The notes under the pieces are model-generated. The model did not search any database. It had not been told where the DNA came from and was given only the letters and a program-made list of their open reading frames with translations. Below, piece after piece: positions 5,942-23,623 of a stretch of DNA of 28,224 nucleotides. A program made the translations under genes and the position numbers. Within the stretch, counting starts at the first letter, position 1. Each line of letters begins with the position of its first letter. The stretch is from a virus: IMG/VR virus record IMGVR_UViG_3300034102_001632, positions 1 through 28,224 of that record; one strand, 5' to 3'.

Positions 5942-6029
5942 TCTTTTTATATCTTCATTTTTACTTTTTGGTTCCATTGCATTATTCATTTATTGGGGAC
6001 TTACACACGCATATTCAGGAGTTGTATGA
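5934..6029 (+). CDS. 31-residue single-pass membrane peptide
   Basis: ATG 5934 to TGA 6029, overlapping gnd by 4 bases. Almost wholly one hydrophobic helix (NLFISSFLLFGSIALFIYWG), ending in a short polar tail. The AGGAG ribosome binding site of gnd lies in its last codons, so its translation probably couples to gnd. Function unknown. Confidence 0.5.
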   Translation: MSNLFISSFLLFGSIALFIYWGLTHAYSGVV

Positions 6030-7069
6030 GAGTAGGATTAATCGGATTAGGTCGGATGGGAGAAGGAATGTCCCGTCGTATGATGAAGGCAGGAATTGAA
6101 GTCTGGGGTTATAGAAGAAATTATGAGAAAGCACAAGAAGCATATGAGAAGGGATATGTGAACGGTGTCACAACTTCTATACAAACCCTTACTCAAGTGG
6201 TAAAACATACTCAGAGTGGAGTATCAGACAAATATGGTCCAGGCATCTTTATGATGGTTGTACCTGCAGAAACAGTAGAGGAGACAATCAATGAGTTACT
6301 ACGATATTGTAGTGAAGGAGATATTATTATTGATCATGGCAATAGCAATTTTAAGGACAGTCGGAAGAGAGCAGAACGTCTGGCAAAACTTGGTATCCAA
6401 TATATTGATTGTGGCACTAGCGGTGGTGTTTATGGTTTGGATCGTGGATACTGTCTTATGGTTGGAGGTGGAAATACTGCAGTCGCCACTTGTGCAAAGA
6501 TTTTTGATGCACTCTCCCCAGGTCTCGCAGCTGCCACCAGGACTCAATTTAACTCAGACGTAACATCTGCTGAGTTTGGTTGGTTGCATTGTGGTGGTCC
6601 AGGTGCAGGACACTTTGTAAAGATGGTTCACAATGGAATTGAGTATGGTATAATGCAGGCATACGCAGAAGGATTTAATATCATTAAGAACGCCAATGCA
6701 GGTGCTCAGTATGTCAGAGAAGGAGATGCGGAAATTGCCCCAATGGGAGATCCCGAAAGTTATTGTTATGATATTGATGTTGCTGAGGTTGCTGAGTTAT
6801 GGCGTCGTGGTAGTGTGGTTGGGTCTTGGTTACTTGACCTTACTGCTGATGTGCTACGCAGGGATGGTGAGCTTAAACAGTTCTCTGGAGGTGTATCCGA
6901 CAGTGGTGAGGGTCGTTGGACTGTTTCTGCCGCTGTGGATCTGGGGGTTCCCGCTCCTGTCATTACTACTGCGTTATTTGAAAGATTTAACTCACGCAAT
7001 CTCGGATCGTTCGGAGCAAAAATCTTAAACGGAATGCGTTACATGTTTGGTGGTCATCACGTAAGATAA
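6026..7069 (+). CDS. gnd: 6-phosphogluconate dehydrogenase (decarboxylating)
   Basis: 347 residues. It oxidises 6-phosphogluconate to ribulose-5-phosphate plus CO2, making reduced nicotinamide cofactor in the oxidative pentose phosphate pathway. The N-terminal Rossmann motif is GLIGLGRMGEGMSRR (residues 4-18), followed by HGNSNF, the substrate-loop signature GTSGGVYGLDRGY and the catalytic region GAGHFVKMVHNGIEYG, whose Lys and His-Asn match the family active site. It is shorter than the roughly 470-residue E. coli enzyme and resembles the compact form found in cyanophages. Start ATG 6026 has AGGAG seven bases upstream and overlaps the preceding stop; an upstream in-frame start would add 11 residues before the Rossmann motif and is rejected. 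In cyanophages gnd is a known auxiliary metabolic gene supplying NADPH and pentose for DNA synthesis. Ribulose-5-phosphate is also the substrate of the RibB-type domain at 20841-21430. Confidence 0.93.
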   Translation: MRVGLIGLGRMGEGMSRRMMKAGIEVWGYRRNYEKAQEAYEKGYVNGVTTSIQTLTQVVKHTQSGVSDKYGPGIFMMVVPAETVEETINELLRYCSEGDIIIDHGNSNFKDSRKRAERLAKLGIQYIDCGTSGGVYGLDRGYCLMVGGGNTAVATCAKIFDALSPGLAAATRTQFNSDVTSAEFGWLHCGGPGAGHFVKMVHNGIEYGIMQAYAEGFNIIKNANAGAQYVREGDAEIAPMGDPESYCYDIDVAEVAELWRRGSVVGSWLLDLTADVLRRDGELKQFSGGVSDSGEGRWTVSAAVDLGVPAPVITTALFERFNSRNLGSFGAKILNGMRYMFGGHHVR

Positions 7070-7824: not shown

Positions 7825-8040
7825 ATGTCTCTGATCCAAAAATTCAAGAAAGATGTTAGCACTCTTCGTTCTGCTGCTAACGGGGAATTCTACCTTGATG
7901 TAAAGAGTCCGAAACTTTATAAAAAGGTCCGTCGTTTTTATGAAAACGAAGGAGTAGTATTTTCTGGTGACCCCCTTGACGACTACGAAATGCTTATGGA
8001 GTATGTCGCTAGTGATCTTGAAACCGTTGAGGTTGCCTGA
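7825..8040 (+). CDS. 71-residue hypothetical early protein
   Basis: Start ATG 7825 is just downstream of a perfect sigma-70-type promoter; a longer in-frame reading from TTG 7774 would begin inside the -35 box and is rejected. Basic N-terminal helix (SLIQKFKKDVSTLRSAANGE), a middle LDVKSPKLYKKVRRFYENEG and an acidic C-terminus. Cytosolic and small, it overlaps the next gene by one base. Probably an early host-takeover protein by position; function unknown. Confidence 0.75.
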   Translation: MSLIQKFKKDVSTLRSAANGEFYLDVKSPKLYKKVRRFYENEGVVFSGDPLDDYEMLMEYVASDLETVEVA

Positions 8041-8303
8041 TGAAAGTGGTTAAAAAACCAACTGTTCTTCTTGAACGTTTTCCTTATCGATATGTTCAAG
8101 TTGGCATTCTTGAAATTAATGGTAACCCTGACTATCGTATTCAAAAAGTAGATTCCTACACTGGACGATATCGGGACATGTATCTTCTAGATAATGAAAT
8201 GCAACTTATGACTGCTATGGAAGATCATAACTACACTTGCTGGTTAGATCCTGATACAGTTCCTGCTTATGTGAAAGAAGATGAAGACACGGATGGTCTA
8301 TAA
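8040..8303 (+). CDS. 87-residue hypothetical early protein
   Basis: ATG 8040 shares a base with the previous stop (TGATG), so translation is coupled. Basic and beta-rich first half (TVLLERFPYRYVQVGILE), Tyr/Asp-rich middle, very acidic end (KEDEDTDGL). No membrane segment or Cys cluster. It is the second gene of the transcript from the 7774 promoter. Not recognised. Confidence 0.7.
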   Translation: MKVVKKPTVLLERFPYRYVQVGILEINGNPDYRIQKVDSYTGRYRDMYLLDNEMQLMTAMEDHNYTCWLDPDTVPAYVKEDEDTDGL

Positions 8304-8332
8304 CAGCACTGGTCGGTGATGAAATCCCCCTT

Positions 8333-8560
8333 ATGTCTAAAACAAGTGTCCTAAGATATCTTGGGAACCTTCTTCTCATAATTGGTTATCAAACTATGTT
8401 ATGGGGAGATTTTAAATATGGTTTGATAATTAAAGTTATTGGAGGTCTTCTTACAGTTCCTTTTGCTATCAAACTTAAACTCTGGGATGTACTATTCTTA
8501 TGTGCATTCTTTGGTATCTCCGAAATATCAAAGTTAACCCAACTTTTCTTGGTTTTCTAA
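8333..8560 (+). CDS. Small multi-pass membrane protein
   Basis: 75 residues, nearly all hydrophobic, with about three segments (YLGNLLLIIGYQTMLW, then LIIKVIGGLLTVPFAI, then LWDVLFLCAFFGISEI). No strong ribosome binding site is visible. It lies between two small early genes on the same strand. Function unknown. Confidence 0.55.
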   Translation: MSKTSVLRYLGNLLLIIGYQTMLWGDFKYGLIIKVIGGLLTVPFAIKLKLWDVLFLCAFFGISEISKLTQLFLVF

Positions 8561-8580
8561 AACCAAGTGGTGGAGTCAAA

Positions 8581-8712
8581 ATGACCCCTTATGAGTTTCT
8601 TGCTTCTCTCAAGAGCAAGTGGTGCGGATGGGGAATTCTTTCTCCGCCTGGTTTCCAATTTCCAGTTAAAGAATTGGTGGCGAGCCTGAGTTACCAGAGG
8701 TGGGTTGCATAA
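8581..8712 (+). CDS. 43-residue hypothetical protein
   Basis: ATG 8581 has GGTGGAG about 7 bases upstream. Trp/Gly/Pro-rich ([18 protein letters not shown]) ending in SYQRWVA; its last codons and TAA lie inside the terminator stem at 8698-8720. A longer reading from 8500 overlaps the previous gene and is less likely. Function unknown. Confidence 0.55.
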
Positions 8713-8725
8713 ACCCACCTTTTTT
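8698..8725 (+). terminator. Intrinsic terminator at the left edge of the glycan island
   Basis: AGGTGGGTT (8698-8706) pairs with AACCCACCT (8712-8720) around GCATA, followed by a run of six T (8720-8725). The stem has nine perfect pairs. It should end the early transcript. Confidence 0.85.
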
Positions 8726-8733
8726 AGTATAAT
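8705..8733 (+). promoter_or_regulatory. Promoter nested in the terminator, TTGCAT-17-TATAAT
   Basis: The -35 candidate TTGCAT (8705-8710) lies in the terminator loop and TATAAT (8728-8733) directly after its T run, spacer 17. The -35 box is a partial match. It would drive gmd. Confidence 0.55.
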
Positions 8734-8752
8734 GACTAAAAGTATTTTCTTT

Positions 8753-19385: not shown

Positions 19386-20057
19386 ATGAAATTAGCTATT
19401 TGTTTTTTTGGTTATCCAAGATTTTATGATATGTGGCGGGAGAAGTTTGGTAATTTTTATTCTGGATGTGAAGTAGACTTTTATGCTCATTTTTGGGAAG
19501 ATGATAATTTAGATAAAGAAAGATTAATATCTGAATTTAATTTCAAAGATGTAATCATAGAACAACAGAAAACAGATTTTTTAGAACTTCCAGAAGAAGT
19601 AGATTTATCCAAGATTAGTAAAAATATATTTGAAACTCTTTCTCCTCTTTATTCATTAAAAAGAGTTGGTGAATTGGTAAGAAAGTTTGATTCGGAATAT
19701 GATTTTGTTATTATCACAAGAACTGACATTGGTTGTATGACTGATGAAAGTTTGATTGATTATGAATTTAATAAAGATGAACTTTATTTTTCATATGTGT
19801 TAGGTGATGAATGGTTAAACACTCATCTTGATGCTAAGTGGTTTTGTGCCTCTGCAGATAAACTTTTAAACATATGTGACGTATATGATAATTTGACAAA
19901 ATATTTGGTTGATGATAAAATATCTTTATGCCACCATAGATTATTTTTTCATAGTTTAAGAGATTATCGTGATAAAATGAATATGGTTTGTGTAAATTCA
20001 ACTAACACTAACGGTGGTTGGTTTTTTATAAGAAACGGAACACTCTCAGAAATTTAA
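19386..20057 (+). CDS. Putative glycosyltransferase, GQMRTF / TRPD family (copy 3 of 3)
   Basis: 223 residues. MKLAICFFGYPRFYDMW at the start, VDFYAHFWEDDN near residue 30 and YDFVIITRTDIGC near residue 108 carry the three shared motifs. It is the shortest copy, and His-Phe-Trp replaces the Ser-x-Trp of copy 1. Four bases separate it from copy 2, so the two are certainly co-transcribed. Function inferred only from motif placement and context. Confidence 0.55.
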   Translation: MKLAICFFGYPRFYDMWREKFGNFYSGCEVDFYAHFWEDDNLDKERLISEFNFKDVIIEQQKTDFLELPEEVDLSKISKNIFETLSPLYSLKRVGELVRKFDSEYDFVIITRTDIGCMTDESLIDYEFNKDELYFSYVLGDEWLNTHLDAKWFCASADKLLNICDVYDNLTKYLVDDKISLCHHRLFFHSLRDYRDKMNMVCVNSTNTNGGWFFIRNGTLSEI

Positions 20058-20069
20058 GTAGATTAAAGT

Positions 20070-21497
20070 ATGAACATTTTATTTCCTATTGCTGGTCTTG
20101 GTACTAGATTTAAAAATAACGGATATATTGATCCCAAACCATTCGTAAAGTTTAAGGGAAAACCACTGATTGAGTGGGCTATTTCATCTTTGAAACTTAC
20201 TGGTAAGTATTATGTTATTGTGAATGGTTTAGAGAAAGAATATATTAAAGTTCTCAATACAATTAAAGAAAAATATTATCTTGATCTTGAGATTGTTGAT
20301 ATTGGAAAATCAACTCTTGGTCAAGCAGAGACTTGTCTCTTAGGTATTCAGAAGGCTAATATTGATCCTTCTGAGCAATTGATCATTACTAATTGTGATC
20401 AGTATACTCCTTGGAACTCTAATAAGTTTTTGAGTTTCATTCGTGACAATAATCCTGATGGAGTTGTAAGCACCTACGATCATCCCAATATTCAGATTGG
20501 ATCTGAAAGTCCTTATAGTCATATTGAACTTGACGATAGTGGATATGCAACTCGACTTGCTGAAAAAGTTGCCATCTCATCTCTTGCTCTCAATGGAATT
20601 TTTTATTGGAAAGAGGGTAACTATTTCATTGATAGCACTCAAAGATTAATGAATGATGATAGTGATGCTGGTTGGTCTACTGGTAAAATGTCTTGTGTCA
20701 AAGAAAAGTATGTCTCTTTGACTTACAACTATTTGATTTCTGAAGGTAAAAAGATTATGAATTATCATATGCAAGATGATGAGTTTGTATCACTGGGAAG
20801 TCCAAATGATATTATGTTGCATATTAAGAGACAGAATGTGATGCAGGCTGTTGAAGATCTTCGTAACGGTAAACCAATCGTTATGGTTGATGATTATGAT
20901 CGTGAGTTTGAAGGTGATATTGTTCTTGCTGCAGAGAAGGCAACTGAAGAAAATCTTCTTTTTGCAATGCGCCACGCAAGAGGTTTGATGTGTCTTCCCT
21001 GCACTCAAGAAAAACTTGATCAGTTTGGTATTCCTATGATGCATACAAATGGATGTGATGCATTTGGAACTCCTTTTGCAACCAGTATTGATGCGGTTGA
21101 AGGAGCAACCACTGGTATGTCTGTTAGTGATCGTGTCGCAACTATTAGTACTTTTATTTCCGACACTTCTAAACCATCTTCTCTTGCTCAACCTGGACAT
21201 TTGTTCCCTCTTCGTGCCCGTCCTGGTCTTCTTACCGAACGTCGTGGTCATACTGAAGGATGTGTTGAGATTCTTAAACTTGCAGGTCTCAAGCAAGTCG
21301 GTGTTATCATCGAGATTATGGATGAGTATGGTAAGATGATTAAGGGTGATGCACTTAAGCAATTTGCTGATATCTACAATCTCACTTTTGTTTCTATTGA
21401 AGAACTATATGATGAGGTTTACAATAAGGAATCTACTGGTAGTGTTCCCCTGTCTGCTGTAGATGAAAAAACTCTTGAGTCTATGGCAAAAATTTAA
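20070..21497 (+). CDS. Fusion: sugar nucleotidyltransferase + 3,4-dihydroxy-2-butanone-4-phosphate synthase (RibB) domain
   Basis: 475 residues in one unbroken frame. Residues 1-245 are an NTP_transferase domain: LFPIAGLGTRFKNNGYIDPK with the GxGTR nucleotide loop and Lys23, and ITNCDQ with Asp110 for metal binding. Residues 256-452 are a complete RibB-type domain: VDDYDREFEGD (Arg278, Glu279, Glu281, Asp283), GIPMMHTNGCDAFGTPF, SDRVATI, QPGHLFPLRA and RRGHTEG (His394). All residues I know to be needed for converting ribulose-5-phosphate to dihydroxybutanone phosphate plus formate are present; one usual Asn in the first motif is Phe. In cyanobacteria RibB is normally fused to GTP cyclohydrolase II (RibBA), not to a nucleotidyltransferase. 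There is no other riboflavin gene here. An internal ATG at 20841 sits at the domain junction but lacks a ribosome binding site. A tail of about 23 residues follows the RibB domain. Confidence 0.88.
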   Translation: MNILFPIAGLGTRFKNNGYIDPKPFVKFKGKPLIEWAISSLKLTGKYYVIVNGLEKEYIKVLNTIKEKYYLDLEIVDIGKSTLGQAETCLLGIQKANIDPSEQLIITNCDQYTPWNSNKFLSFIRDNNPDGVVSTYDHPNIQIGSESPYSHIELDDSGYATRLAEKVAISSLALNGIFYWKEGNYFIDSTQRLMNDDSDAGWSTGKMSCVKEKYVSLTYNYLISEGKKIMNYHMQDDEFVSLGSPNDIMLHIKRQNVMQAVEDLRNGKPIVMVDDYDREFEGDIVLAAEKATEENLLFAMRHARGLMCLPCTQEKLDQFGIPMMHTNGCDAFGTPFATSIDAVEGATTGMSVSDRVATISTFISDTSKPSSLAQPGHLFPLRARPGLLTERRGHTEGCVEILKLAGLKQVGVIIEIMDEYGKMIKGDALKQFADIYNLTFVSIEELYDEVYNKESTGSVPLSAVDEKTLESMAKI

Positions 21498-22459
21498 TGA
21501 AGTTTACCACTAGAGCATATAATAGTTTTGCCTTAAATCCTAAAACAAAGGCAAGTATTATTAAAACTAGTGAAGAAGAAAGACTGAAGGGAGAAGCAGA
21601 ATACTATCTGGATCTCCCCGATGATCTTAAAGTCTTCTTTCCTAGAATGATTAATTGTGATCTTACTCCACCATATACTATGGAACTGGAGTATTATGCT
21701 TACAATAATCTTGGAAATGTTATGGTTTCCCCTGATTATGATGATGGTTTTTGGGAAAAGACTTTTGACTTTCTCCTAGGATATATCAATGCTTACAAAC
21801 AGTCAGAATCAATTCCTGCCAATAGGAAAGACTCTCTTTTAATGTTCGTAGACAAAACGGAAAAAGAGTATGTTAAGTTGATGCACGAATTTGACTTTTT
21901 TACATCTTTAAGAGTTCAGGAGGAATTTGTTTTAAATGGAAAACCCCTCAAGTCTTTTAATTTAATCTGGGGAAAACTCAAAGAGTTTATTGAAACAAAA
22001 TTGATTGAAGATAATTTTTATTTCATTCACGGTGATCTTTGCTTCAGTAATATCCTTTATGGTATTAATCCAATTACAGATGATTTAATTCTTAAGATGA
22101 TTGATCCTAGAGGAGTATTTGGTGAGACGAAATACTTTGGGGATCCTTACTATGATCTGGCAAAAATTTCACACTCTTGTAATGGTGGATATGAATACTT
22201 TATCTACGATCAGTTTAAAGTAGACGTTGATTCAAATCAGTTTTTTCTTGATTTTAAAAACGAGTCTAACAAAGATAAAATTAATTCTAAGTTCATAAGT
22301 CTTGTTAAAAAATTTGACTTTGATTATCAGAAGATTAAACTTATTGAAGGATGTATCTTTGTTGGTATGTGTGCCAGACACTATGATAGTTTGGAAAGAC
22401 AAAAGGCTATGTTTATCACTGGTCTTAAAATACTAAATGAAATTTATGAAACACTATAG
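21497..22459 (+). CDS. Small-molecule kinase of the aminoglycoside/choline phosphotransferase fold
   Basis: 320 residues. FIHGDLCFSNILYG is the Brenner-type catalytic loop (HGDxxxxN), and LKMIDPRGVFG the metal-binding strand (IDPRG), followed by GDPYYDLAKISHSCNGGY. The N-terminal half is divergent. The fold phosphorylates sugars, choline or antibiotics with ATP; behind a nucleotidyltransferase, phosphorylation of a sugar or polyol before activation is the natural guess, not resistance. ATG 21497 shares a base with the previous stop, and its end overlaps the HAD gene, so the block is translationally coupled. Confidence 0.75.
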   Translation: MKFTTRAYNSFALNPKTKASIIKTSEEERLKGEAEYYLDLPDDLKVFFPRMINCDLTPPYTMELEYYAYNNLGNVMVSPDYDDGFWEKTFDFLLGYINAYKQSESIPANRKDSLLMFVDKTEKEYVKLMHEFDFFTSLRVQEEFVLNGKPLKSFNLIWGKLKEFIETKLIEDNFYFIHGDLCFSNILYGINPITDDLILKMIDPRGVFGETKYFGDPYYDLAKISHSCNGGYEYFIYDQFKVDVDSNQFFLDFKNESNKDKINSKFISLVKKFDFDYQKIKLIEGCIFVGMCARHYDSLERQKAMFITGLKILNEIYETL

Positions 22460-22802
22460 ATTTTGTTTTGATCTTGATGGAACTTTGTGTTACACAAGAA
22501 AGGAAAATGAACATTACAGTGAAGTAAAACCAATTCCTGGAGCAGTAGAAACCCTTCAGAGGTTAAAATCTGAAGGTCATTATATTATTATTATGACTGC
22601 AAGAAATATGGTTACTCATAATAATAATATTGGTAAAATTATTGCCAAACAATCACCTATTGTGGTAGAATGGTTAAATAAGCACGGTATTCCTTACGAT
22701 GAACTTCACTTTGGAAAACCACTTGCAGATTTTTATGTTGATGATAAAGCAGTCAAATTAGAAGACTGGAATACTTTTAATAAATCTTTGGAGCAATTAT
22801 GA
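22437..22802 (+). CDS. HAD-superfamily phosphatase, capsule-biosynthesis (BcbF-like) type
   Basis: 121 residues, short for a HAD enzyme. Motif I is CFDLDGTLCYTR (nucleophile Asp plus general acid Asp), motif II MTARNM, and the C-terminal acidic motif FYVDDKAV. Proteins of this length with these motifs occur in capsule loci beside sugar nucleotidyltransferases, for example BcbF. It probably removes phosphate from a sugar or polyol phosphate in the same route as its neighbours. It overlaps the kinase gene; ATG 22437 and ATG 22446 are both possible starts with no decisive ribosome binding site. Its stop overlaps the next ATG by 4 bases. Confidence 0.8.
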   Translation: MKFMKHYRFCFDLDGTLCYTRKENEHYSEVKPIPGAVETLQRLKSEGHYIIIMTARNMVTHNNNIGKIIAKQSPIVVEWLNKHGIPYDELHFGKPLADFYVDDKAVKLEDWNTFNKSLEQL

Positions 22803-23623
22803 GAGATTTTTTCTTTGATACAGCCAATGTAGACTTTATAAAATCTACTATGGAAAAATATGGATCTGATATTGATCCTAAATTGGTTCGTGGTGTAACT
22901 ACAAATCCTAATGCATTTAGTAAAGTTGATAAGTATCATCTTGATGAGTGGTTGAATCATGCTGTTGTAATGGGTAAACTTGTTTCCGAAATTCGTGGAG
23001 ACAATGAAGGTGAAATTCATATTCAAGCACCATATTCCTATCTTGACCCAAAAGTTATTCTGGAATATGCAAAAATAATCACTGATGCAACTCAGGGAAC
23101 TTGTAAAGTTGGTATGAAAATTCCTCCATACCAAAAAGTTCTTGAGTATGTCGATCAGTATAATGAATATGTAATTACCAATGTAACTGGTCTTGCAGAT
23201 TCATCAACCGCTCTTAAGTGTTGTACTTATGATGTTGGTTATATCAGTATTATTCCTGGTCGTATGGAAGAAGTTGGTATTGATGCTCAATCAGCAATTG
23301 CATTTGTAAATCAATGTAATTTTGGAAATACTCAAATTATTACTGGAAGTCAAAGGACAACTGAACAAATCATTTATTCTTTCTACTTGGATACCGTTCC
23401 TACAATTGGTGAAAAGTGCTGGGCAGATATCTTCCAAGGTGATAACTTTCAACGTATTCTGAATATTGAATATGGTTATGAACCTGTTGGTCAATTTAGT
23501 CCAACAATTTCACAAGATAATATTAATCTTTCCCTTGCTTTCTTTGAACAAATGGATGGGTTAGGTGATACTGCTCGTAAAGATTTAGAGGAAAGGCTTT
23601 CTAATGAAAATAGCATTTCATGA
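22799..23623 (+). CDS. Transaldolase / fructose-6-phosphate-aldolase family enzyme, divergent
   Basis: 274 residues. FFFDTAN with Asp7, GVTTNPNAF, and VGMKIPP with Lys107 correspond to the DT(A/S), TTNP and VK(V/I)P motifs of the FSA/TalC branch, Lys being the Schiff-base residue. IITGSQRTTEQII matches the later (S/A)SxxT segment. It is about 55 residues longer than FSA or the usual cyanophage TalC (about 215), with insertions in the middle, so it is not the standard phage talC. It is coupled to the HAD gene before it and overlaps the next by 20 bases. A likely role is making or breaking a carbon-carbon bond of a sugar precursor in this island; a pentose-phosphate role as in other cyanophages is the alternative. 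Confidence 0.78.
   Translation: MRDFFFDTANVDFIKSTMEKYGSDIDPKLVRGVTTNPNAFSKVDKYHLDEWLNHAVVMGKLVSEIRGDNEGEIHIQAPYSYLDPKVILEYAKIITDATQGTCKVGMKIPPYQKVLEYVDQYNEYVITNVTGLADSSTALKCCTYDVGYISIIPGRMEEVGIDAQSAIAFVNQCNFGNTQIITGSQRTTEQIIYSFYLDTVPTIGEKCWADIFQGDNFQRILNIEYGYEPVGQFSPTISQDNINLSLAFFEQMDGLGDTARKDLEERLSNENSIS

Follow-up and report, generated by a model that had tools for sequence, protein, structure and literature searches.

The window analysed here comprises the 28,224 bases of the virus record IMGVR_UViG_3300034102_001632, which carries 7 tRNA genes and, within an island of glycan-related genes, a four-gene block at positions 20070-23623. The block encodes a nucleotidyltransferase (NT) fused to a RibB domain, i.e., 3,4-dihydroxy-2-butanone 4-phosphate (DHBP) synthase, followed by a kinase, a small HAD phosphatase and a transaldolase-like protein (TAL), and our results indicate that this set is likely to constitute a phage pathway dedicated to supplying the glycan island around it with a sugar or polyol, probably an unusual one, in nucleotide-activated form. 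The enzyme families are all known and, as far as the open-access papers searched go, what is new is their combination and the use of RibB within it. We assign the window to a cyanophage because of its tRNA genes, a 6-phosphogluconate dehydrogenase-like gene, and a block closely resembling that of Synechococcus phage S-SKS1 (NC_020851; 90.7% identity for NT-RibB, 79.4% for the kinase and 91.8% for TAL).

Composition of the block

A first-pass annotation had described these genes as overlapping or sharing bases at every junction, and this is indeed the case: the four open reading frames (20070-21497 for the fused gene; the others in Table 1) overlap successively by 1, 23 and 4 bases, with 20 more bases shared with the next gene downstream. 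The four-gene layout is confirmed, although the set amounts to five activities, since the first gene has two domains; the aldolase, RibB, kinase, HAD and nucleotidyltransferase content previously claimed was matched by family and fold searches. As 11 of the 19 junctions across the whole island overlap, gene overlap is weak evidence for the unity of the block, and we dropped it as proof of linkage. For the window against 5 relatives, with each part of the block computed separately, the ratio of nonsynonymous to synonymous substitution rates was 0.03-0.07 for RibB, 0.03-0.06 for TAL, about 0.06 for the kinase (3 of 5 comparisons computable), 0.10-0.16 for HAD and 0.04-0.19 for NT; every part is under purifying selection.

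The NT domain (residues 1-250 of the fused gene) matched PF00483/PF12804 over residues 8-184 (23 bits for NTP_transferase PF00483, cut-off 21.2), and its nearest solved structures were 4evw, a nucleoside-diphosphate-sugar pyrophosphorylase (E = 2.6e-15), and then LicC (1jyk, 9.6e-4). The RibB domain (residues 251-475) matched PF00926 over residues 259-447 (E = 6e-65) and passed the equivalog-domain cut-off of TIGR00506 (186.8 against 177.45 bits). Residues R278, E279, E281, D283, C308, T348, H377, R391, H394 and E415 (window numbering) align with E. coli RibB (1iez) and were invariant in all 19 module RibBs, the bacterial one described below included; these are the catalytic residues of the enzyme, and by this alignment they are intact. 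The module RibB thus resembles riboflavin RibB/RibBA in domain family and catalytic residues, and is unlike them in being fused to NT or NT-kinase, in having no RibA domain, and in having no other riboflavin gene seen nearby. The NT-RibB protein already forms a PHROGs cluster (phrog_3980, unknown function), and the family is therefore known as sequence, but not as a pathway. GC content of the RibB domain (20820-21494) was 0.403, versus 0.31-0.34 elsewhere in the block, with third-position GC equal to that of NT (0.244).

The kinase had no Pfam match at E 0.01, APH not being reached by the window protein, and no useful sequence match in the PDB (3 at E 0.5-0.7). It displays the motifs HGDxCFSN, of the conserved HGDxxxxN type, and DxRG, and its AlphaFold model (pLDDT 91.5) resembled, by structure comparison (VIA), glucosamine kinase (Z 18.8, root-mean-square deviation (rmsd) 3.6, 280 aligned residues), maltokinase (Z 18.0, rmsd 4.0, 279 aligned) and methylthioribose kinase (Z 17.4, rmsd 4.8, 271 aligned), further kinases of the APH fold scoring similarly within an overall range of Z 18.8-15.4. 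The predicted fold is that of the APH/choline kinases. Maltokinase and methylthioribose kinase phosphorylate an anomeric hydroxyl, and the likeness of the model to them would be compatible with, while short of proof of, sugar-1-phosphate formation.

The best NCBIfam family for the small HAD was TIGR01689, EcbF-BcbF (96.1 bits, below the subfamily cut-off of 162), and its DxD motif (D12/D14) was invariant; no paper on EcbF/BcbF was found in a search of the open-access literature. The label 'phosphoheptose isomerase' has been attached to this small HAD in S-SKS1 (SWZG_00040), RB69 (RB69p051) and Enterococcus phage 9183 (gp046); despite this annotation, the three belong to the HAD phosphatases.

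TAL reached 43.5 bits against TAL_FSA PF00923 (gathering cut-off 27) and 29.7 bits against TIGR00875, the equivalog of fructose-6-phosphate aldolase (FSA), far under its cut-off of 245.95. Its model (pLDDT 92.9) adopts the transaldolase fold from end to end (Z 22-24; against 4e0c, Z 23.6, rmsd 3.5, 236 aligned). Residues K107, D7, N36, N128, S150, R155, S184 and R186 were invariant in 18 of 18 TALs and the same as in transaldolases; K107 is the Schiff-base Lys, and TAL shares with TalB and FSA the fold, this Lys and the phosphate-binding Arg pair. Conversely, Q76, equally invariant, occupies a position that is Glu in transaldolases and Gln in FSA, and I152 and P153 replace the Phe/Tyr and Leu/Val of transaldolases and FSA, Ile being present in all 18, within an SxIPGRM active-site stretch that is invariant among TALs and altered with respect to the known family. 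TAL is a true member of the transaldolase family, albeit a diverged one whose substrate pocket carries an invariant change.

Table 1. Location of the features discussed in the text (window positions unless a locus is named)
Feature	Location	Strand	Basis
NT domain of the fused gene	20070..20819	+	PF00483/PF12804; PDB 4evw
RibB (DHBP synthase) domain of the fused gene	20820..21497	+	PF00926, TIGR00506
Small-molecule kinase, APH/choline-kinase fold (predicted)	21497..22459	+	HGDxCFSN and DxRG motifs; AlphaFold model
Small HAD phosphatase, EcbF/BcbF-like	22437..22802	+	TIGR01689, phrog_1238
Transaldolase/FSA-like protein, altered SxIPGRM stretch	22799..23623	+	PF00923; model
6-phosphogluconate dehydrogenase-like gene	5993..7069	+	PF03446/PF00393, phrog_1319
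c0-family protein, R-x-D motif, presumed glycosyltransferase	19386..20057	+	single-linkage cluster
RuBisCO-like protein	L038:3524-4720; L042:9868-11097; L049:9925-11154; L051:9855-11084		
TET/JBP oxygenase, kinase/NT/HAD locus without RibB/TAL	L160		
C5 cytosine methylase, kinase/NT/HAD locus without RibB/TAL	L156		
Thymidylate-synthase-family gene, kinase/NT/HAD locus without RibB/TAL	L143		
TET-associated glycosyltransferase (TAGT) and 5-hmdU DNA kinase, beside kinase/NT/HAD unit	L149		

Conservation of the set in phages and a bacterial contig

IMG/VR was scanned with TAL, RibB and kinase patterns, and the open reading frames of the recovered loci were then searched by HMM. The patterns derive from the query families and favour close members, and none requires a second gene; as loci are shared between scans, and some lie on the same contig or are >90% identical, the counts refer to loci and not to independent events (30 loci clustered at 90% TAL identity gave 21 groups). 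The TAL scan (profile A1) recovered 36 loci, 26 of them at 35-46% identity, and down to 35% identity these encode the kinase (36/36), HAD (36/36), RibB (35/36) and NT (34/36); the locus without both RibB and NT (L020) is on a contig that begins inside the kinase gene. Among the 41 loci of the RibB scan, kinase, TAL and HAD were found in 39 and NT in 38, with one contig (L097) ending at the RibB gene. Of the 80 best of 95 loci in the kinase scan, 40 had the RibB and TAL pair, 39 had neither gene, and a single one (L109), lying at a contig start, had TAL alone. The RibB-to-TAL span was 2.4-4.3 kb. RibB and TAL are thus shown, as a co-occurrence pattern, to be an obligate pair, which would specify the carbon skeleton.

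Gene order varied among these loci. The window shares the order fused NT-RibB, kinase, HAD, TAL with L032, L035, L037 and L054, and the same order is found unfused in L031 and L034; RibB, kinase, NT, HAD, TAL is the order in L036, L039, L040, L042-L046, L048-L053 and L056. NT lies ~5 kb upstream of RibB, kinase, HAD and TAL in L038, and ~4 kb off in L011, where an unfused RibB is followed by the kinase, TAL and another HAD. The L006 block shares 74-92% identity with that of the window, and the flanking island genes are unmatched. The strongest sign that the set has a shared task is that its order shuffles while the set itself persists. Within L006, NT (8001-8750) is 74% identical to window positions 20070-20819, and RibB and kinase are both 89% identical; recombination inside the fused gene may account for the lower NT identity.

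A first scan of genomes with close TALs gave no match, and a second one with 18 diverse TALs yielded 45 pattern matches, of which one Planctomycetota locus, from a metagenome-assembled genome, was confirmed (L057). It encodes in a row a RibB-NT-kinase triple fusion (817 residues), a second NT, HAD and TAL, downstream of genes for a split transketolase, a methyltransferase, a zinc alcohol dehydrogenase and an RmlD-like SDR. The contig looks chromosomal, because genes resembling those for tryptophanyl-tRNA synthetase and coproporphyrinogen oxidase lie farther upstream, as read by eye from their translations. Two distinct fusions are therefore known, NT-RibB in phages and RibB-NT-kinase in this bacterium. 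Its TAL is the only one among 392 genomes of the phylum, a second match in that search (1.1e-13, three stops) looking like an ordinary relative; among plasmids, the 20 of 38 matches listed for it were only ordinary FSAs at 27-30%. In named phages, the TAL of L046 was found only in S-SKS1 (2 records). The five tightly linked activities are found in phages of both marine and fresh waters, and in one bacterium or more. This conservation in diverged phages and in a bacterial contig, with two different fusions, sustains the grouping of the genes made in the first-pass annotation; of its expectation that they would recur in bacterial polysaccharide loci, what stands is one bacterial contig carrying the set, the sole basis for it.

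Neighbouring genes were analysed in 21 chosen module loci and, in a second analysis, in 30 chosen loci. The c0 family, to which the gene immediately upstream of the block belongs, was present in 18 of the 21; its window member gave no informative match in a Pfam search and would be a putative glycosyltransferase. Other island neighbours of the block include GDP-mannose dehydratase, SDR epimerases and the GT10, GT25, GT47 and FkbM families. A RuBisCO-like protein (PF00016, 2.4e-32 in L042) and a methyltransferase lie near the module in 4 of the 21 loci, and the former may be a further enzyme acting on sugar phosphates in this pathway. A variant cluster in cyanophage S-SM2 (L016, 1-10613) encodes a transketolase, a zinc alcohol dehydrogenase, a class II aldolase, two small HADs and a 522-residue protein matching NT twice, and resembles the Planctomycetota cluster in having both transketolase and alcohol dehydrogenase.

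A proposed activation unit and known sugar pathways

Many loci with kinase relatives and no RibB or TAL keep NT and/or HAD; for instance, L127 encodes kinase, NT, HAD and a c0-like protein, and L140 the kinase and a similar protein. The best reading is that NT, kinase and HAD form a general activation unit, found also outside the module. In L149, L156, L160 and L143 more distant relatives of the unit adjoin DNA-hypermodification genes (Table 1), which suggests sugar activation for DNA in those phages; a sulfotransferase is also found among these neighbours. Carbamoyltransferase-like genes lie near distant kinase/NT pairs, in L154 (Pfam-checked) and, as cluster d21, in L144 and L161.

Phage RB69 carries a row of genes for arabinose-5-phosphate isomerase (ORF055c), NT and kinase (ORF53_52c) and HAD (RB69p051). 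Its kinase and HAD matched the block profiles (2.5e-21 and 8.5e-23, respectively), its NT gave no match to the block NT profile, and a tblastn search with its SIS isomerase against all fetched loci and the S-SKS1 stretches, with the window as pieces, found it only in RB69. In PMC6024577, the NT and kinase regions correspond to one 561-residue protein with a proposed role in UDP-arabinose synthesis, the arabinose genes are proposed to serve arabinosyl-hmC DNA, and Butyrivibrio proteins are described in which an NT-kinase-like stretch is followed by an SIS domain related to ribulose 5-phosphate isomerases; the term kinase for these stretches is our assignment and not that of the paper. The RB69 cassette is thus similar to the block in its kinase and HAD families, its adjoining NT, and an entry enzyme taking ribulose 5-phosphate, and differs in using an SIS isomerase instead of RibB, in having no TAL, in an NT outside the block profile, and in its proposed use in DNA arabinosylation. 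The parallel supports the kinase, phosphatase and nucleotidyltransferase as an activation toolkit, as previously suggested. By analogy, the L057 fusion looks like the Butyrivibrio one with RibB in the place of the isomerase, and from this parallel we propose ribulose 5-phosphate as a common entry metabolite; since the RB69 NT was unmatched and the SIS isomerase was absent from the other fetched loci, the idea of swapped entry enzymes is drawn from RB69 and the Butyrivibrio fusions.

The ADP- and GDP-heptose pathways employ HldE or HddA, GmhB and HddC, following the same logic of kinase, HAD phosphatase and nucleotidyltransferase. They differ from the block, whose kinase has the predicted APH/choline-kinase fold and whose RibB and TAL have no heptose counterpart; among the block genes, none was recognized as an isomerase of the GmhA type. 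HddA, HddC and GmhA are named in PMC10918830, where the Campylobacter jejuni CDP-6-D-glucitol pathway is described as two enzymes, an NT and an SDR reductase, encoded in a capsule cluster. This pathway shares with our proposal an NT whose substrate is a ketose phosphate, there fructose 6-phosphate; it was set aside as a model, as described there without kinase, HAD, RibB or aldolase (PMC10918830). Polysaccharide clusters of cyanophages are described in PMC7824862, in which the text matches seen for 'ribb' were to 'ribbon'. In the open-access papers searched, a scope with most subscription papers and bioRxiv preprints outside it, RibB together with NT, kinase or TAL is undescribed.

A proposed pathway and its alternatives

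In the pathway we propose, RibB and TAL would supply a carbon skeleton to the general activation unit. The 6-phosphogluconate dehydrogenase-like gene would provide D-ribulose 5-phosphate, which RibB, given its family and intact catalytic residues, would convert into L-DHBP and formate. TAL, whose fold and residues are those described above, would form a Schiff base at Lys107 and thereby transfer a dihydroxyacetone-type C3 unit to, or take one from, a phosphorylated partner. The kinase would then add a phosphate, plausibly anomeric, and HAD would remove the original one, in either order; NT would couple the product to a nucleotide, and a neighbouring transferase would use it. Conservation of the set and the RB69 parallel partly support the activated-sugar pathway of the first-pass annotation, while the skeleton building it attributed to the aldolase and RibB stays conjectural.

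Several points weigh against this proposal. The enzyme activities are predictions. DHBP is a ketone without an aldehyde and cannot be the aldol acceptor, which is a chemical gap between RibB and TAL; TAL keeps S150 and N36, whose TalB counterparts hold the C1 hydroxyl of the donor, and this argues against the methyl ketone DHBP as a TAL donor as well. Either another enzyme would act between the two, or TAL would act first and RibB would rearrange a longer ketose phosphate. Furthermore, the 16.8 kb of L055 contain no recognized NT, a distant RibB (L100, 37% identity) without the module is a real exception, and, given the hypermodification neighbours of the kinase/NT/HAD relatives in other phages, glycan use is no more than presumptive. 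It is accordingly conceivable, and in our view unlikely, that the activated sugar is destined for phage DNA, the cassette being a relative of those for DNA hypermodification: these neighbours and the arabinosyl-hmC proposal for RB69 favour it, whereas the annotated RibB/TAL loci have GT10, GT11, GT25, GT47, FkbM and SDR neighbours, and the 182.7 of 208.0 kb of S-SKS1 covered have no annotated DNA glycosyltransferase or hydroxymethylase, with DNA methylases and thymidylate synthase annotated.

The order problem would be solved if RibB catalyzed a changed reaction after TAL, for instance on a longer TAL-made ketose phosphate to give a branched or 1-deoxy sugar, since the ketose phosphates expected from TAL would have a free C1 hydroxyl, as RibB substrates do. 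The joint presence of RibB and TAL in all loci uncut by a contig end, except L100, and the altered SxIPGRM stretch agree with this; however, every RibB catalytic residue checked is conserved and the domain scores above the TIGR00506 threshold, which is that of the ordinary enzyme, and we regard such a change as rather improbable. Cyanophages carry pentose-phosphate genes, S-SKS1 itself having a second annotated transaldolase and a 6-phosphogluconate dehydrogenase, and RibB normally serves riboflavin synthesis; TAL and RibB could therefore be auxiliary genes of these two routes lying in the island by chance. Their joint presence or absence in 79 of the 80 best kinase loci and the two different fusions of RibB to NT make this very unlikely, and no other riboflavin gene was found among the searched window neighbours or annotated in the same portion of S-SKS1.

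Returning to the dedicated activated-sugar pathway, we tentatively suggest, as a possibility short of even odds, that RibB was recruited from vitamin B2 to nucleotide-sugar synthesis, its rearrangement and the altered transaldolase yielding a 1-deoxy, branched or C4-derived nucleoside-diphosphate sugar that decorates host or virion glycans. To our knowledge, from a search that was not exhaustive, no earlier non-flavin role of DHBP synthase exists, and this would be the first one. The small size and conservation of the block proteins make them amenable to reconstitution in vitro. If true, the pathway would newly connect pentose phosphate metabolism with an activated sugar, by a route present mainly in phages, and would suggest a modular logic in which one kinase/NT/HAD unit is served by interchangeable ribulose 5-phosphate entry enzymes, such as the RB69 isomerase and the RibB of the block.

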